The notes under the pieces were generated by a model. The model made no database searches. It was not told the origin of the DNA and saw nothing but the letters and a program-made list of their open reading frames with translations. A DNA stretch of 64,000 nt from Byssovorax sp. GTDB taxonomy: Bacteria > Myxococcota_A > Polyangia > Polyangiales > Polyangiaceae. Below, piece by piece: positions 14,277 through 47,343 of this stretch. The stretch's first letter is position 1. Every line of letters begins with the position of its first letter. Both the position numbers and the translations under genes were made by a program. The stretch is taken from NCBI GenBank assembly GCA_025362495.1, contig JANYGI010000144.1, forward strand, positions 1 to 64,000, read 5' to 3'.

Positions 14277-14747
14277 ATGGAGCGCGTCGCGTCAAAAAAC
14301 GCGGGCCGCCGGGAACCAACCCGGGCGCCGGGCTCGAACGCCGAGCCGAGGAGGCGCGCTCTGAAATCGAGGCACGGCACCGCGGGGATCGGTCGGGTGA
14401 TCCGCGTCGCGGCGGTCGTCGTGGCGTCGGCGCTCGCTCACGGCGCGCTGCTCGGCGCGCCGCAGATCTGCGCGCATCTCGCCTCCCACGACGCGCCCGC
14501 GCCGATCGTGCTCCGTCGTGCTGGCTACGCGGCGAGCGTCGAGCCCATCGTGCGGCGGATCGGCGTAACGATGGATCGCGCGGCGCTGATCGCGCGGGCG
14601 CGCGCGGCGCGGCGGACCGGGCGCCTCGCGCTCGGGGAGTTCCTGCTCGACTCCAGCGCGATCGACGCGCGCGAGCAAGGGGTGGGCTTCGATCGTCGGC
14701 GCGCCGGAGCGCTCTTCGCGGCGCGCCTAGGGCGCCGATCAGCTTGA
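14277..14747 (+). CDS. hypothetical protein with one membrane segment
   Basis: 156 residues. A basic N-terminus of about 38 residues precedes one hydrophobic segment (IRVAAVVVASALAHGALLG), then an Arg/Ala-rich tail (DRAALIARARAARRTGRLALG). No domain is recognised. Codon third positions are GC-rich as in the neighbours, but opposite-strand frames are also open here, so reality of the gene is moderately supported only. It starts 49 bases from the divergent transglycosylase gene and ends just before the palindromic repeat at 14761. Confidence 0.45.
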   Translation: MERVASKNAGRREPTRAPGSNAEPRRRALKSRHGTAGIGRVIRVAAVVVASALAHGALLGAPQICAHLASHDAPAPIVLRRAGYAASVEPIVRRIGVTMDRAALIARARAARRTGRLALGEFLLDSSAIDAREQGVGFDRRRAGALFAARLGRRSA

Positions 14748-14760
14748 AATGCCAAAAAAA

Positions 14761-14875
14761 AGACCGGAAATTTAACAGGGAGGCGAGGAGACGGGGAGGT
14801 GAGAGGAAGATCGGGAAAGATTTTCCCTCGGGTCTCCCAGTCCTCCTCGCCTCCCTGTGAATTCTCCGACTCTTC
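14761..14875. repeat. dispersed palindromic repeat, copy 1
   Basis: A run of eight A's (14754-14761) leads into the element. Left arm from ACAGGGAGGCGAGGA (14775) pairs with the right arm TCCTCGCCTCCCTGT (14844-14858) with one indel and a mismatch further in; an inner stem GGGAAA/TTTCCC sits at the centre. Bases 14761-14798 match 36 of 38 with the reverse complement of 44621-44658, so this is one of two copies of a family. The right side continues as degenerate similarity to about 14875. It lies where a gene on the right has lost its 5' end. The local base composition is purine-rich on one strand and pyrimidine-rich on the other. Confidence 0.8.
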
Positions 14876-16414
14876 AACCTGTTCGGTGCTCTAGACGCTC
14901 TCCGCGCGGCGTCGGCGCGCGGCCCGCTGCGCGCGGCGGTGCCCGAGGCCTTCGGCGATCTGCACTAGTACGGGCGTCCCGGTGGCCGCGTCGGCGACGC
15001 GCTGCTCGAGGGCGGCGGCTCGTGCGAGCCGCTGGCGCAGCTCCTCGCCGCGGCGCTCTTCGACGCTGGCCACGGCGCCGTCGTCGGGCTCCGCTACTAC
15101 GGCGGAGTCGGCGGGATCCCGCACCTCACGCCGCTGCTGATCGAAGGGAAGAACGAGGTCGATCTGCTCGCCGGGCGCGCCGCGGTGCCGGGCGGCGCGC
15201 GCTTCGCCGCGGACGAGCTGGTGGAGATCTACGCGCGCGCGCACGAGCCCGCGCCCGCGAGCGATGCGGCGACGGGCGCCGAGGCGAGCGGCGAGGACTC
15301 GCCGCCCGCGGCAGGATCGATGGCCGACGGCTACCCGCCCAACCACGATCGCTACCCGGGGACCACGCCGCTCTATGCCGGGAGCGCGGTGCCGGTGGCA
15401 GGCGCGATCGCCGCGGCGGAAGCAGCGGCGATGCCCGCCGAGGATCAGAGCGCGGACTGTGCGTTCTTCGTGCGGCTCGCGGCGCTCGATCCGCCGTCGA
15501 TCGCGCTCGGCGAGGGCGACGCGGCCCCCTCGATCGAGCTCCGTCGCGTGCCCACGTCGGCGCAGATCGATCGCACGTTCGCGCGGATCTCCGCCGTGGA
15601 ACAGACGGTGGCGCCGCTCGCGTCGAAGGCGCCGCAGGCCGCCGCGGCCAGCGCCGATCGGCTCATGGCGCTCGCTTGCCTCACCGCCGTCTACGATCGC
15701 GCCGCCGTCGATCTCGCCCTCGCGCGCTCTCCCGCGATCGCCCGCGCTTTGCTCGTGAAGCGCAACGAGTCGGCCGACGCCGGCGCGAAGCTGCTCGCGT
15801 CGATCGACTGGGTCTCGCCTGCGGGCCGAGGGATCTCGCGGCGGCTCGCGTCGCGCTACTCGGGTCGGAGCTGGCTCCTCCTCGTGCTCGCCGGCGGCGA
15901 CGTGCCGGTCCTGGCGTCGCTCGCCGATCACGACGACTGGGGGCGCGTCAACGCGCTCGCCGCGCTGATCCTCTTCCCGGACACGCGGCTCCGGGCCCTC
16001 GCGCTGGCCGAAAAGCTCCCGCGCGGACAGCAGATCGAGGTGATGCACGAGATCTTCCACGCTCACGACGATCTCCGCCCGTGGAGCTCGAACTACGCGC
16101 TCGACGCCCGCGGTGACGGCGAGATCGTGCGCGCCTACCGCGTCTTTCGCGGCGTCGCGTGGGGCCTGTGGGAGGGCGCCCGCTCGCCCGACGAGGTCCT
16201 CGAGGGGATGCATCGCGACGCCGAGAAGGCCGGCCTCGATCCGACGTGGGAGGCTGCGTTCGCCGAGTATTTCGCGCTGAACGGGCTCAATCTGCACCAG
16301 CTCCGCGCCGACGGTCCGGCCTTCTCGCGGGCGCTCGGGCGCTGGCTGCGCGATCGCGGTCACGCCGATCTCGACGTCTACCGCCGCGTCGTCGCCGCCG
16401 TCGATCTGAACTGA
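14861..16414 (+). pseudogene. 5'-truncated gene with an in-frame TAG, unknown function
   Basis: The frame that is clearly coding from 15185 to 16414 continues upstream with protein-like sequence (LFNLFGALDALRAA, then GPLRAAVPEAFGDLH), is broken by TAG at 14966-14968, and runs back into the palindromic repeat without a credible start codon. Just after the stop come GRPGGRVGDALLEGGGSCEP and LAQLLAAALFDAGHGAVVGL, which resemble the Cys region of transglutaminase-like proteins (weak inference). A truncated product could start at GTG 15185 (409 residues), containing HEAT-like helical C-terminal sequence. Alternative: a short 5' gene fragment plus a live downstream gene. A sequencing error at the TAG cannot be excluded. 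Confidence 0.6.
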
Positions 16415-38330: not shown

Positions 38331-39701
38331 TCAGGAGCGGCGGGGTTTGGCGGGGCCGGCGCGACGGGGACGGGCAGGCGCCTCGTCCGGGCGAGCTGCG
38401 GGCCGGGCGCGCGTCGGCGCCGGTCCATCTGCCCGACGCGAGCGGGGATTGGCCTCCGGGCGCTCCGGGCGAGCTGCGCGCGTGTCCGGGCGAGCTGCGC
38501 GCGCATCCGGGCGAGCTGCGCGGGCATCCGGGCGCGACGTGCGCGTGTCCGGGCGCGGTGCGCGGCTGTCCGTGCGAGGTCCGCGCGTGTCCGTGCGCGG
38601 CCCGCGGCCCTCGGTGCGAGGTGCGCGCGTGTCCGTGCGAGGTGCGCGCGTGTCCGGGCGAGGCGCGCGCGTGTCCGTGCGAGGTCCGCGGCTATCCACG
38701 AACGGCGTGCGGTTCTCGCTGCGGGTCGCGCGCGCGTCGGGGCGAGCTGCGCGCGAGTCCGGACGGCTGGCGCCGCGCTCGGCGGGCGCGCCTCCACGCT
38801 CGGCGTGCGGGATCGCGCGAGGCGCCCGGGGCGCGCCGCGCTGCGTGGGCGAGCCGCCGCCGCCCATGCGCTCGAGGCGTGTGGTGCTCGCCGTGTGTCG
38901 CTCCGATCGCGACGTGCGATCGTGACCGTGGCGGCCGGGCTTCTCGATCGGGCCGGCCATCGAGGCCATGCGCACCTTCTTCGGCACCCCGAAGTGCTTC
39001 CGTATGTCGAGCAGCTCGTCGACCGAGAGCGGGCGCCACTCGCCGGGGCGGAGGCTCTCGCTGCTGATGCCGGCGAAGCTCATCCGCGCGAGGCGCATCA
39101 CGGGGAAGCCGGTGGCCTCGCCCATGCGGCGGATCTGCTGGTTGCGGCCCTCGCGCAGCGTGACCTCGAGCCAGGTCTTGTCGTCCTCGTGGCGGATGAT
39201 CCGCACGTCGGCGGGGAGCGTGACGCCGTCGTCGAGCTGCACGCCCGTCGCCCATTTGATCACGTCCTCGTCGCCCATGTTGCCGTGGACCTTGAGCACG
39301 TACGTCTTCGGGACGCCGCCGCGCGGGTGCAGCAGCGCGTTGGCGAACTCGCCGTCGTTGGTGATGAGAAGCACGCCGCTGGTCGCGAAATCGAGCCGTC
39401 CCACCGGGTAAACGCGGCCGCCGACGTCGCGCAGGAGATCGGCCACGGTGGGGCGCCCTTCGGGATCGTCGAGCGTGGAGACGACGTTGCGCGGCTTGTG
39501 CAGCAGGATGTAGCGCGGCGACTCGGCCACGAGGCGCACGCCGTCGACCTCGATCTTGTCCTCGAACAGATCGGCCTTCGCGCCGAGCTCGGTCACGATC
39601 GTGCCGTTCACCCGCACCCGCCCCGCGAGGATCATCTCTTCGCCGGCGCGCCGCGAGGCGACGCCCGCGCGCGCGATGATTTTCTGAAGTCGTTCCTGCA
39701 T
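38331..39701 (-). CDS. 23S rRNA pseudouridine synthase with Arg-rich repeat tail
   Basis: 456 residues. Residues 1-55 form an S4 RNA-binding domain (MQERLQKIIARAGVASRRAG). Then the RsuA/RluB catalytic domain with YPVGRLDFATSGVLLITNDG containing the catalytic Asp, KTYVLKVHGN, and REGRNQQIRRMGEATGFPV. RluB family members usually end near 250 to 300 residues. After about residue 250 this protein carries a 200-residue tail rich in Arg, Pro, Ala, Asp and Ser, with many near-repeats such as RAPRPDT. It is predicted disordered and strongly basic. Expected function is modification of one uridine in 23S rRNA (position not assignable). Confidence 0.9.
   Translation of the reverse strand: MQERLQKIIARAGVASRRAGEEMILAGRVRVNGTIVTELGAKADLFEDKIEVDGVRLVAESPRYILLHKPRNVVSTLDDPEGRPTVADLLRDVGGRVYPVGRLDFATSGVLLITNDGEFANALLHPRGGVPKTYVLKVHGNMGDEDVIKWATGVQLDDGVTLPADVRIIRHEDDKTWLEVTLREGRNQQIRRMGEATGFPVMRLARMSFAGISSESLRPGEWRPLSVDELLDIRKHFGVPKKVRMASMAGPIEKPGRHGHDRTSRSERHTASTTRLERMGGGGSPTQRGAPRAPRAIPHAERGGAPAERGASRPDSRAARPDARATRSENRTPFVDSRGPRTDTRAPRPDTRAPRTDTRAPRTEGRGPRTDTRGPRTDSRAPRPDTRTSRPDARAARPDARAARPDTRAARPERPEANPRSRRADGPAPTRARPAARPDEAPARPRRAGPAKPRRS
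38480..38770. repeat. short-period tandem repeat coding for the basic tail
   Basis: Within the pseudouridine synthase gene, units of about 24 bases encoding eight-residue blocks of the type RAPRPDT or RGPRTDT are repeated with variation more than ten times. The same period gives open frames on the other strand that are not genes. Boundaries are approximate. Confidence 0.75.
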
Positions 39702-42744: not shown

Positions 42745-44547
<1,803 letters not shown>

Positions 44548-44555
44548 GGAACCGG

Positions 44556-44660
44556 AGCCGGAGGAAATTACAGGGAGACGGGGAGGCGGGGAGGTCGGAC
44601 CGGAATTTTTTATTTCCGGACTCCCCGTCTCCTCGCCTCCCTGTTTATTTTCCGGTCTCT
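44556..44660. repeat. dispersed palindromic repeat, copy 2
   Basis: Between the convergent lepA and MCE genes. Left arm ACAGGGAGACGGGGAGG begins at 44570 and pairs imperfectly with the right arm CCTCGCCTCCCTGT ending at 44644. An inner stem CCGGAA (44600-44605) / TTCCGG (44614-44619) flanks a T-rich loop. Outer flanks CCGGAGG and TTTTCCGG add pairing. Bases 44621-44658, reverse-complemented, match 36 of 38 with 14761-14798. The position between convergent stops suits a bidirectional terminator, but the cross-genome similarity also fits a mobile palindromic element. Confidence 0.82.
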
Positions 44661-44668
44661 TCTCCCGC

Positions 44669-45688
44669 TCATTCTCTCCAGAGGAACTTCCACGGGTTGT
44701 GCTTGAGGTCCCGGGCCAGCTCCTGGAGATCGTCGAAGAGCTGCTCGTCCATCACCAGCGCTCCGACCGTGCCCTTGCCTTTGCGCATGTGAGACACCAC
44801 GGCCTGCGCGTCGATCGTCATCGACTTCGCGCGGCTGGTGATGTCGGCGACGTCGTCGACGGCCTGCTTGATCTTCGCTTGCGCGGCCGGATCGCCGAGC
44901 GTCGCCGTCAGGCGCTTGGTGTTGGCGATCGTCTCCTTGGCGTCGGCGAGGAGCGGCGGGCCGTCCTTGGCGAGCGTGCCCGTCGTCCGATCGACGTTGT
45001 CGAGGATGCGGTCGATCTGCGGGTTCGCGACGTATTTCCCCTTCGCGCCGGTGACGAGATCGTCGGCGTGCTCGCTGATCTTCACCGCGTTGTCGGCCAG
45101 CTGATCGAGCTTGTTGCCGTTCTTGTCGAAGAAGTCGCCCGTGCCCTTGAGGGTGCGCGTGAGGCCGGTGAAGGCCTTGCCGATGTCTTCCTTGTTCTCG
45201 CGGATCGACGACACCGTCGAGTGGAGCAGCTCGTACATCTCGGCCACCAGCATGTCGAGGCGCGGCGGATCGAGGGCCCGCACGACGGCGTTCTCGGCCA
45301 GCACCGGCTGATCGCTCGACCCCGGCTCGATGGCGAGGAACTGCTCGCCCAGCACGCCCTGCGTCGTCACGTAGAAGATCGAGTTGGTGTGGACGCTCTG
45401 CTCGTAGCGCTTCTCGACGTCGATGCGGAGACGCACCAGCGGCTGGCGCACGCCGTTCGTCACGGTGCCGCCGCGAAAGGCGATCTCCTTGATCTTCCCG
45501 ACCTTCACGCCGGCGATCTTCACCGGCGCGCCCGTTTGCAGGCCGCCCGGGTTGTCAAAATCGACGAAGATGGAGTACGCCGGCTGGAAGTTGATGCCCC
45601 CCATCACGATGATGAACGCAGTCAACAAGCCGACCGCCGTGAGGATCAGCATGCCGACTTTGACTTCGATGGAACGGGGGCTGGCCAT
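44669..45688 (-). CDS. MCE/MlaD-family lipid transport protein
   Basis: 339 residues from ATG 45688. A membrane anchor (VGMLILTAVGLLTAFIIVMG) precedes one MCE domain (YSIFVDFDNPGGLQTGAPVK, VKVGKIKEI, VTTQGVLGEQFLAIEPG). Then come about 200 residues of helices with heptad-like character (ENKEDIGKAFTGLTRTLKGT, DNAVKISEHADDLVTG). One MCE domain plus a long helical tail fits the MlaD type that forms hexameric rings for phospholipid transport. Divergent from the MlaF-type ATPase with only 39 bases between. The permease MlaE is not in the window. Confidence 0.9.
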   Translation of the reverse strand: MASPRSIEVKVGMLILTAVGLLTAFIIVMGGINFQPAYSIFVDFDNPGGLQTGAPVKIAGVKVGKIKEIAFRGGTVTNGVRQPLVRLRIDVEKRYEQSVHTNSIFYVTTQGVLGEQFLAIEPGSSDQPVLAENAVVRALDPPRLDMLVAEMYELLHSTVSSIRENKEDIGKAFTGLTRTLKGTGDFFDKNGNKLDQLADNAVKISEHADDLVTGAKGKYVANPQIDRILDNVDRTTGTLAKDGPPLLADAKETIANTKRLTATLGDPAAQAKIKQAVDDVADITSRAKSMTIDAQAVVSHMRKGKGTVGALVMDEQLFDDLQELARDLKHNPWKFLWRE

Positions 45689-45727
45689 GGGCGCTATCTT
45701 CCTCGATCTCTCGATGGAAACGGAACC

Positions 45728-46468
45728 GTGATCTCCTTCCGGCACGTGAAGAAATCGTTCGGGGACAAGAGCGTCCTCGAGGATGTCTCGTTCGATGTGC
45801 AGGACGGCGAGGTGTTCTTCATCATCGGTCAGAGCGGCGTGGGCAAGAGCGTGCTGATCAAGCACCTCGTCGGCCTGCTCTACCCCGACGGCGGCGAGAT
45901 CTTGCTCGACGGCGAGGACGTCAGCCGCTTCGACGAAGAGCAGATGTACCCCGTGCGGATGAAGTGCGCGATGGTCTTCCAGCACTCCACGCTCTTCGAC
46001 TCCATGACCTGCGCGGAGAACGTGGCGCTGCCCCTCCGCAAGCACAAAGGCCACAGCCCGAAGGAGGCCATCGCCGAGGCCAGGAAGCGGCTCGTGCAGG
46101 TCCACATGCAAGACTTCGCCGACCGCTACCCGCCCGAGCTCGGCGACGGCATGCGCAAGCGCGTTGCCATCGCCCGCGCTCTCACCCTCGATCCTCGCTA
46201 CGTGCTCTTCGACGAGCCGACGACCAGCCTCGATCCCGTGAGCGCGCGCCGGGTCGACAAGCTCATCCGCGAGCTCAGCGACACGCTCGGCGTCACCAGC
46301 ATCGTCGTCAGCCACGATCTGCCGAGCATCTTCACGATCGCCGACCGGATCGTCATGCTCTACAAGGGCACAGTCCGGCTGATCGGCACGCGCGACGAGT
46401 TCAAGCGGTGCCCCGACGCCGTCGTGCAGCAGTTCATCACGGGCAGCGCCGAGGGCCCGATCGAATGA
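45728..46468 (+). CDS. MlaF-like ABC transporter ATPase
   Basis: 246 residues from GTG 45728, with GGAA upstream. Walker A is GQSGVGKS, the Q-loop is MVFQHSTLFD, Walker B is YVLFDEPTTSLDP, and the H-switch is VVSHDLPSIFTI. The signature is LGDGMRKRVAIARAL, which departs from LSGGQ at the second and third positions. The similarity to MlaF (VFQHSTLFDSMTCAENVALP, and the C-terminal TRDEFKRCPDAVVQQFITG) is clear. It energises transport of phospholipids. The next gene overlaps by ATGA. Confidence 0.9.
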   Translation: MISFRHVKKSFGDKSVLEDVSFDVQDGEVFFIIGQSGVGKSVLIKHLVGLLYPDGGEILLDGEDVSRFDEEQMYPVRMKCAMVFQHSTLFDSMTCAENVALPLRKHKGHSPKEAIAEARKRLVQVHMQDFADRYPPELGDGMRKRVAIARALTLDPRYVLFDEPTTSLDPVSARRVDKLIRELSDTLGVTSIVVSHDLPSIFTIADRIVMLYKGTVRLIGTRDEFKRCPDAVVQQFITGSAEGPIE

Positions 46469-47343
46469 GGGTCCTCGGGACGATCGTTGCGCTCGCAACG
46501 ACGCTCGCCGTCGCCGGCACGGCGCGGGCGGAGCCGATCCCGAGGCTCCATTTCAACGGGTACGTCGACGTGCCGATCACCGTCGGCCTGCTCTCCATCT
46601 ATGGCTTCAGCGAGCTCGCGGTGAAGGCGCGCCTCGCGCCGCGCGCCCCGTACTGGGACGATCGCGACACCAACGGATCGGACATCCTCGCGCCGCTCGA
46701 TCGCCTCGCGACGCGCCTGCGATGGACGAAGCCGCAGACCGCCGGGCACATCAGCGACGGCGGGCTCGCGCTCTCGCTGACCTCGTCCATCGCGCTCGAC
46801 GTCGGCGTCGCCGCGTACGATCACGACACGCCCGCGCACGTCGCCGAGAACAGCATCATCATCCTCGAGTCGATGGCGACGGCGATGTCGATGAACCAGC
46901 TCACCAAGTTCTTCGCGGGCCGCCAGCGCCCCTGCGCCCACTTCGGGTTGTACCTCGAGCGGCCGTGCTTCTCCGATGGATCCGACAACAACCTCTCTTC
47001 GTTCTCGGGCCACGCCACGTTCACGACGTCGCTCGCCGTCGCCAGCGGCATGGTGGCGACGATGCGGCGCTATCGCCTCGCGCCCCTCGTGTGGGCCAGC
47101 GGCGCGGCGATCGCCGTGAGCACGGGCTACCTGCGCCTCGCGGCCGACAAGCACTATCTCAGCGACGTCGTCACGGGCACGGTGATCGGCGTCGCCGTCG
47201 GCTTCTTCATTCCGTATCTCTTTCACAGCCCCCGCGCCGAGATCGGCGCGACGACCGAGAAGAGCGCGGGCTCGGCGGCCTCTTCGCTCACCTCGTCTTC
47301 GCTCGCGTCATCGCCGCTCTTCAGCGTGTCCGGCACCTGGTGA
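46465..47343 (+). CDS. PAP2-family phosphatase
   Basis: 292 residues, overlapping the ATPase stop by four bases. The three PAP2 motifs are present: KFFAGRQRP, SSFSGHAT with its catalytic His, and RLAADKHYLSDV. A signal or first helix (VLGTIVALATTLAVAGTARA) is at the N-terminus. Several hydrophobic segments follow. Expected role: dephosphorylation of lipid phosphates such as phosphatidate or undecaprenyl pyrophosphate in the membrane. Placement after a Mla-type ATPase suggests a lipid-remodelling function; this is inference. Confidence 0.9.
   Translation: MRVLGTIVALATTLAVAGTARAEPIPRLHFNGYVDVPITVGLLSIYGFSELAVKARLAPRAPYWDDRDTNGSDILAPLDRLATRLRWTKPQTAGHISDGGLALSLTSSIALDVGVAAYDHDTPAHVAENSIIILESMATAMSMNQLTKFFAGRQRPCAHFGLYLERPCFSDGSDNNLSSFSGHATFTTSLAVASGMVATMRRYRLAPLVWASGAAIAVSTGYLRLAADKHYLSDVVTGTVIGVAVGFFIPYLFHSPRAEIGATTEKSAGSAASSLTSSSLASSPLFSVSGTW

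Follow-up and report, generated by a model that had tools for sequence, protein, structure and literature searches.

The window, the 64,000-nucleotide stretch of Byssovorax DNA analysed here, contains two palindromic sequences about 30 kb apart that match each other almost perfectly in inverted orientation. What are these sequences, and by what means do they spread? Bases 14761-14798 are identical to the reverse complement of 44621-44658 at 36 of 38 positions, exactly as an earlier note on this DNA had it, and the inverted match extends to 41 nt at 93% identity. It is the top-ranking distant inverted pair within the window; in twelve simulations of the window with a third-order Markov model, the best 38-mer reached 28-32 matches. 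Both copies fold as hairpins (z -6.8 for copy A and -6.4 for copy B against shuffled sequence), and whole-genome searches with copy A and with the core motif returned further copies, so that the note was also right about the folding and about a genome-wide palindromic family. Copies A and B are of different kinds, the former lying at the centre of a MITE and the latter being a bare palindrome. The features of both sites are listed below.

14277-14730, plus strand: 5' part of the split gene, without Pfam match
14727-14730: putative left target-site copy CTAG, from alignment of copies with their flanks
14731-14890: MITE body (copy A), 160 bp, about 32 genome copies
14731-14748, plus strand: left terminal inverted repeat GGCGCCGATCAGCTTGAA
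14775-14798, plus strand: left hairpin arm of copy A, three 8-bp units ACAGGGAG/GCGAGGAG/ACGGGGAG
14835-14858, minus strand: right hairpin arm of copy A, inverted
14873-14890, minus strand: right terminal inverted repeat, AGCACCGAACAGGTTGAA on the minus strand
14891-14894: putative right target-site copy CTAG, from alignment of copies with their flanks
14894-16414, plus strand: rear (3') part of the split gene, continuing the frame of the 5' part once the insert is left out
42745-44547, plus strand: lepA, upstream convergent neighbour of copy B
44555-44659 (about): copy B, solo palindrome without MITE ends
44570-44594, plus strand: left arm of copy B, ACAGGGAG/ACGGGGAG/GCGGGGAG
44620-44644, minus strand: right arm of copy B, the stretch matching copy A
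44669-46498, minus strand: MlaD-domain gene, convergent neighbour of copy B

Two kinds of palindrome in one genome

Copy A is almost certainly a MITE. Searching the whole genome (10.8 Mb in 240 contigs) with it yielded 26 near full-length matches (93-100% identity, mostly 93-99%) together with seven partial matches, often at the ends of contigs; weaker matches were to other hairpins of the genome. The MITE total is about 32, as copies on contigs C98 and C47 overlap at one place. Complete copies have sharp common ends, reading CTAG, then GGCGCCGATCAGCTTGAA ... TTCAACCTGTTCGGTGCT, then CTAG; most have a body of 158-160 bp, and the inverted repeats at the two ends are imperfect (GGCGCCGATCAGCTTGAA versus AGCACCGAACAGGTTGAA). 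Among the 17 copies with both ends, the 4-bp flanks are CTAG/CTAG in seven and CCAG/CCAG in two, and differ by one or two bases in the remaining eight; the CTAG site is itself palindromic, and the target-site duplication could be 2 or 4 bp. Copies L002, L006, L008, L012, L016, L020, L023, L024, L026 and L029 are flanked on one side or on both by CCAG, CTGG or CCGG in place of CTAG. The pairs L016/L023 and L024/L026 each have one flank in common and the other different, which suggests either recombination between copies or an assembly error.

The MITE contains neither a transposase ORF nor any ORF of its own. Without the MITE body and one CTAG, the ORFs to its left and right join in frame (...GALFAARL-DALRAAS...), and the rejoined frame meets an in-frame TAG 24 codons past the junction, at 14966-14968. 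The earlier note had placed copy A at 14761-14875, in a gene-free gap next to a 5'-truncated gene. That extent proved too small, the unit being the MITE at 14731-14890 with its CTAG flanks, and the supposed gap is an interrupted ORF; because the halves join in frame once the insert is removed, the truncated gene represents the downstream piece of a gene that has been split and is decaying. The note's idea that the family changes genes was borne out for the MITE. At the end of contig C35 the same 35-bp MITE end is followed by different DNA and the start of an ORF, where the contig stops. Judged by this sequence, it is probably the left end of the parent IS of the MITE, whose transposase would then move the MITE; IS701 or IS630 are presumably compatible with CTAG targets. 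No complete IS emerged when this genome and its relatives were searched with the C35 tail (174 bases), and the only outside match, 28 nt in genome G019, led to unrelated ORFs.

Copy B occupies the gap between lepA and the convergent MlaD-domain gene, and here the gene-free gap stands. A genome search with the core motif, followed by inspection of the sites, gave about 15 solo hairpins without MITE ends, copy B included. Their arms consist of three 8-bp units, ACAGGGAG GCGAGGAG ACAGGGAG, and their loops differ. A single MITE embracing copies A and B was ruled out, since copy B and the other solo hairpins have no MITE ends; likewise an insertion-sequence end, the explanation of the match that the note had held against its own proposal, fits only the outer ends of copy A. 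It is scarcely credible that only the MITE matters and that copy B is a decayed MITE stripped of its ends. The arms of copies A and B do match closely, but the solo copies are diverse, none has MITE ends, and they share flanking GGAG..ATTT signals with a gene-bearing copy on contig C19. Rfam returned only sub-threshold microRNA-hairpin matches, which we read as chance. Three solo palindromes (L101, L104 and L108) have the flank GATCGAAGGGGATCACGAGCAGAG in common and may lie within a further repeat; in L108 most of the left arm is gone. Elsewhere in the window, positions 38422-38803 hold a direct repeat array with a 21-nt period.

Inverted arms around GxxExxY genes

At C19:20844-21452 the same arms as those of the window palindromes enclose a single gene. 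Its product matches PDDEXK_3 (PF13366; E 1.7e-41) and lies far over the cut-off of the GxxExxY family (TIGR04256; 145.4 bits against 35). What differs from the family as named is the placement of the genes here between inverted repeats. Contigs C2 and C106 each carry a further GxxExxY copy, enclosed by inverted arms of a second flavour, AACGCAAAGGCGCGGAGACGCAG, and the copy on C106 contains an in-frame TAG. The C2 and C106 elements (C2:1150-1900 and C106:1-700) share long flanks beyond their arms, so that a larger duplicated repeat surrounds both. At C98:8114-8282, overlapping C47:1-137, the left half of a MITE hairpin is joined to a right arm that belongs to the other flavour, and we count this hybrid junction among the signs of movement. 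Inside the solo copies, tblastn found no GxxExxY remnants. Our main reading, to which we give a probability of a little under 0.6, is that copies A and B are gene-less copies of an element composed of an arm, a GxxExxY gene and an inverted arm, and that the nuclease would mobilise or convert its palindromes.

The pairing of gene and arms was examined by aligning the 250 nt upstream of each GxxExxY gene with the reverse complement of the 250 nt downstream, a score of at least 30 being counted. In an unselected sample of this phylum, inverted arms were found at 30 of 57 loci, as opposed to none of 136 controls shifted within the same locus and 2% of pairs taken across loci; for about half of the GxxExxY genes of the phylum, this flank test detected no arms. 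A second set comprised 80 loci from many phyla, archaea included (three records), collected with a query that favoured the LGPGLLES subgroup. Here, 61 of 78 loci lay between inverted arms, compared with 2 of 402 shifted controls. The cross-locus rate rose to 26%, because unrelated loci have the arm motif in common. A typical arm of this set reads ACCACRGAGRCACRGAGRCACRGAG. Generally, an arm is built as a short array of 7-bp motifs (of the CNCNRAR type, e.g. CACRGAG) in a fixed inward orientation, with a unit spacing of 8 in 166 cases, 9 in 92 and 10 in 16. In the window, the arms are arranged likewise, from CAGGGAG/CGAGGAG units, and this shared plan, together with the C19 copy, points to their membership in the same superfamily as other GxxExxY arms.

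Gene and motif also tend to occur in the same genomes. The motif is present in 48 of 50 GxxExxY genomes, in most of them far above the reversed-pattern control (maximum 150+139 versus 4). In the phylum sample, the gene occurs in eight of the ten genomes that give two or more exact matches to the motif, compared with 37 of 282 overall (Fisher 1.6e-6). In Undibacterium, all nine GxxExxY genes have inverted arm motifs (seven with scores of at least 30), and six genomes with at least nine motif hits, G374 and G375 among them, have no GxxExxY gene. Co-occurrence in this genus gave p 0.008 at a one-hit threshold and p 0.20, not significant, at two hits; the motif pattern used does not pick up the CGC flavour, which two of the species with the gene have. 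Arm similarity and protein similarity were weakly correlated (Mantel r 0.17, p 0.01). At one locus (L146), the GxxExxY N-terminus (MNHEIHEPHEK) is read from the arm, which means that arm sequence can turn coding. Several Undibacterium sites carry a second palindrome of about 70 nt (AAGACTTCTTGCAAGAAGTCTTCGTTCCGCAGGCGAGTGGCATGCC...CTGCTGCAC) within CACAGAG arms (L320:1553-1625; L314:17727-17830; L307:12205-12300; L291:660-800; L296:970-1075); it is absent from one orthologue.

An alternative is that GxxExxY is a cargo nuclease, for example with a defence or regulatory role, in a cassette moved by another enzyme or by repeat recombination, the palindromes having spread otherwise (e.g. by RAYT or replication slippage). 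We regard this as unlikely, but deserving of some weight. Many genomes hold palindromes without the gene, copy A is a palindrome carried by an IS-type MITE, and the nested palindromes inside the arms are of another kind, all of which it would accommodate. Set against this is the recurrence of the same pairing across many phyla and arm flavours. Genes of other classes were not encountered between such arms, a weak argument since the sample consists of GxxExxY loci only.

What the protein may do was approached through its predicted structure. An AlphaFold2 model built from 69 sequences (pLDDT 94) had its best structural match in the PDB in SSO0001, which we take to be a Cas4 (Z 9.6), followed by other PD-(D/E)XK enzymes at 6-7.3, including Hjc (7.0) and AddAB (6.5). 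Foldseek alone gave E values above 0.001, and a PDB sequence search with the GxxExxY profile returned no match. D68, K80 and Y96 are invariant in the 69 sequences, and E78 and Q92 are conserved in at least 90%. D...ExK...QxxxY is the pattern of RecB/Cas4 nucleases. Fold, conserved residues and PF13366 together predict that GxxExxY is a Cas4/RecB-like PD-(D/E)XK nuclease. In predicted fold and residue pattern it resembles Cas4/RecB-type nucleases, lambda exonuclease and the Hjc resolvase; unlike these, it is a stand-alone protein of about 125 aa encoded between palindromic arms.

Movement and stability of the elements

Comparison of related genomes revealed occupied and empty sites. Between one orthologous pair of Undibacterium genes, seven species have the hairpin and the 23 others listed have a gap of 31-171 nt without it. 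All nine GxxExxY genes of the genus are at one site, followed by an ORF that starts MIDNYDSFTYNL and is presumably trpG-like; inheritance plus replacement can explain this single site. Genomes G357 and G358 have flanks that are about 96% identical, with enclosed proteins at 73% and differing arms, and identity drops at the element edges. Judged from these alignments, this cassette was exchanged whole, either by conversion or by re-insertion. In Sphingomonas parapaucimobilis, arm, gene and arm fill the space between fabD and fabG (L365:1489-1917) with almost no extra sequence; the same gap measures about 30 nt in Sphingomonas paeninsulae and Rhizobium indigoferae. The palindromes had no clear target duplication.

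The gene-less Undibacterium genomes G374 and G375 are about 94% identical. All 11 testable palindromes of G375 are at orthologous sites in G374, from which it follows that movement there is slow or has stopped. No clean empty site was found between the two genomes, each tested site being filled in both, and several hairpins diverge faster than their flanks. Such gene-less palindromes are compatible with fossils that have long outlived a lost gene, but also with some other mobiliser.

This stability would also be expected if the palindromes were retained because they serve the host, chiefly by terminating transcription in both directions or by stabilising mRNA, with GxxExxY between them incidental. 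Gene orientation in Byssovorax speaks for such a function, as ten of 13 scorable solo copies (the copy B site and L091-L105) have convergent neighbours and none has divergent ones. Undibacterium, however, shows no convergent bias (2 convergent, 4 divergent and 11 co-directional among 17 scorable copies), leaving the terminator unsupported as a general function. Moreover, sites are empty in most species, and a host function leaves unexplained why arms occur at 61 of 78 GxxExxY loci and at 0.5% of nearby positions. We consider this explanation quite improbable.

Proposed mechanism and known systems

We propose that the GxxExxY nuclease would recognise the unit arrays or the extruded hairpin and cut there, and that repair of the break would copy or convert the palindromic element and so spread it. 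Copies without the gene would depend on GxxExxY acting in trans, or would be fossils. RAYTs are thought to mobilise or convert REPs, and the role proposed for GxxExxY parallels that of RAYT on REPs, with an unrelated enzyme. A wider claim, which we hold tentatively and at slightly under even odds, is that these elements represent a very widespread, undescribed class of mobile DNA, in which palindromes of 8-9-bp units are mobilised by Cas4/RecB-like GxxExxY proteins rather than by a transposase, in many bacterial phyla and in Archaea, with many gene-less derivatives. If true, bacteria and archaea would share a common selfish element that spreads by a repair-type nuclease without a transposase. 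Many phyla have intergenic repeats of the CACAGAG/CGCAAAG type, for which the proposal supplies a testable partner; for GxxExxY, a nuclease family that has a name but has not been characterised, it supplies a first hypothesis of function.

The earlier note had likened the palindromes to REP/BIME or MITE elements. The MITE likeness holds for copy A only, and the REP likeness failed on the features compared. REPs are described in PMC3733652 as palindromes of 20-40 bp with GTAG or CGTC at one end; the present hairpins measure about 90-105 nt and have neither motif at the foot, and the gene enclosed on C19 does not encode a Y1 transposase, so that membership in REP/RAYT was rejected. The general layout is the same as in REP/BIME with RAYT: many intergenic palindromes, a single gene between copies, and solo copies that outnumber gene-bearing ones. 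In contrast to the Y1 HUH transposase of that system, the enclosed PDDEXK_3/GxxExxY protein has a PD-(D/E)XK fold, and the hairpins are longer and built from arrays of 8-9-bp units. An ordinary REP/BIME family moved by RAYT is, on these differences, highly improbable.

The name of PATEs (palindrome-associated transposable elements) also links palindromes to transposable elements; they are tied to IS200/IS605-type elements. In open full-text literature, we found neither the arm sequences nor any function or repeat association for GxxExxY, a name that occurs in two papers and receives a passing mention in one of them, PMC8934634. The layout resembles REP/RAYT but has an unrelated enzyme, and the flanking of GxxExxY genes by these palindromes suggests a mobile-DNA system of which no description was found in open full text.

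Copy A itself resembles bacterial IS MITEs in its 160-bp length, terminal inverted repeats, CTAG flanks and about 32 near-identical copies. It departs from them in carrying a foreign palindrome that also lives independently, and its parent IS was seen only at a contig end. One palindrome would have entered an IS-derived MITE and been multiplied by a different enzyme, a case of one mobile element carried by another. The hairpin of copy A was multiplied about 32-fold with its MITE and, at a CTAG site in the window, split a gene.
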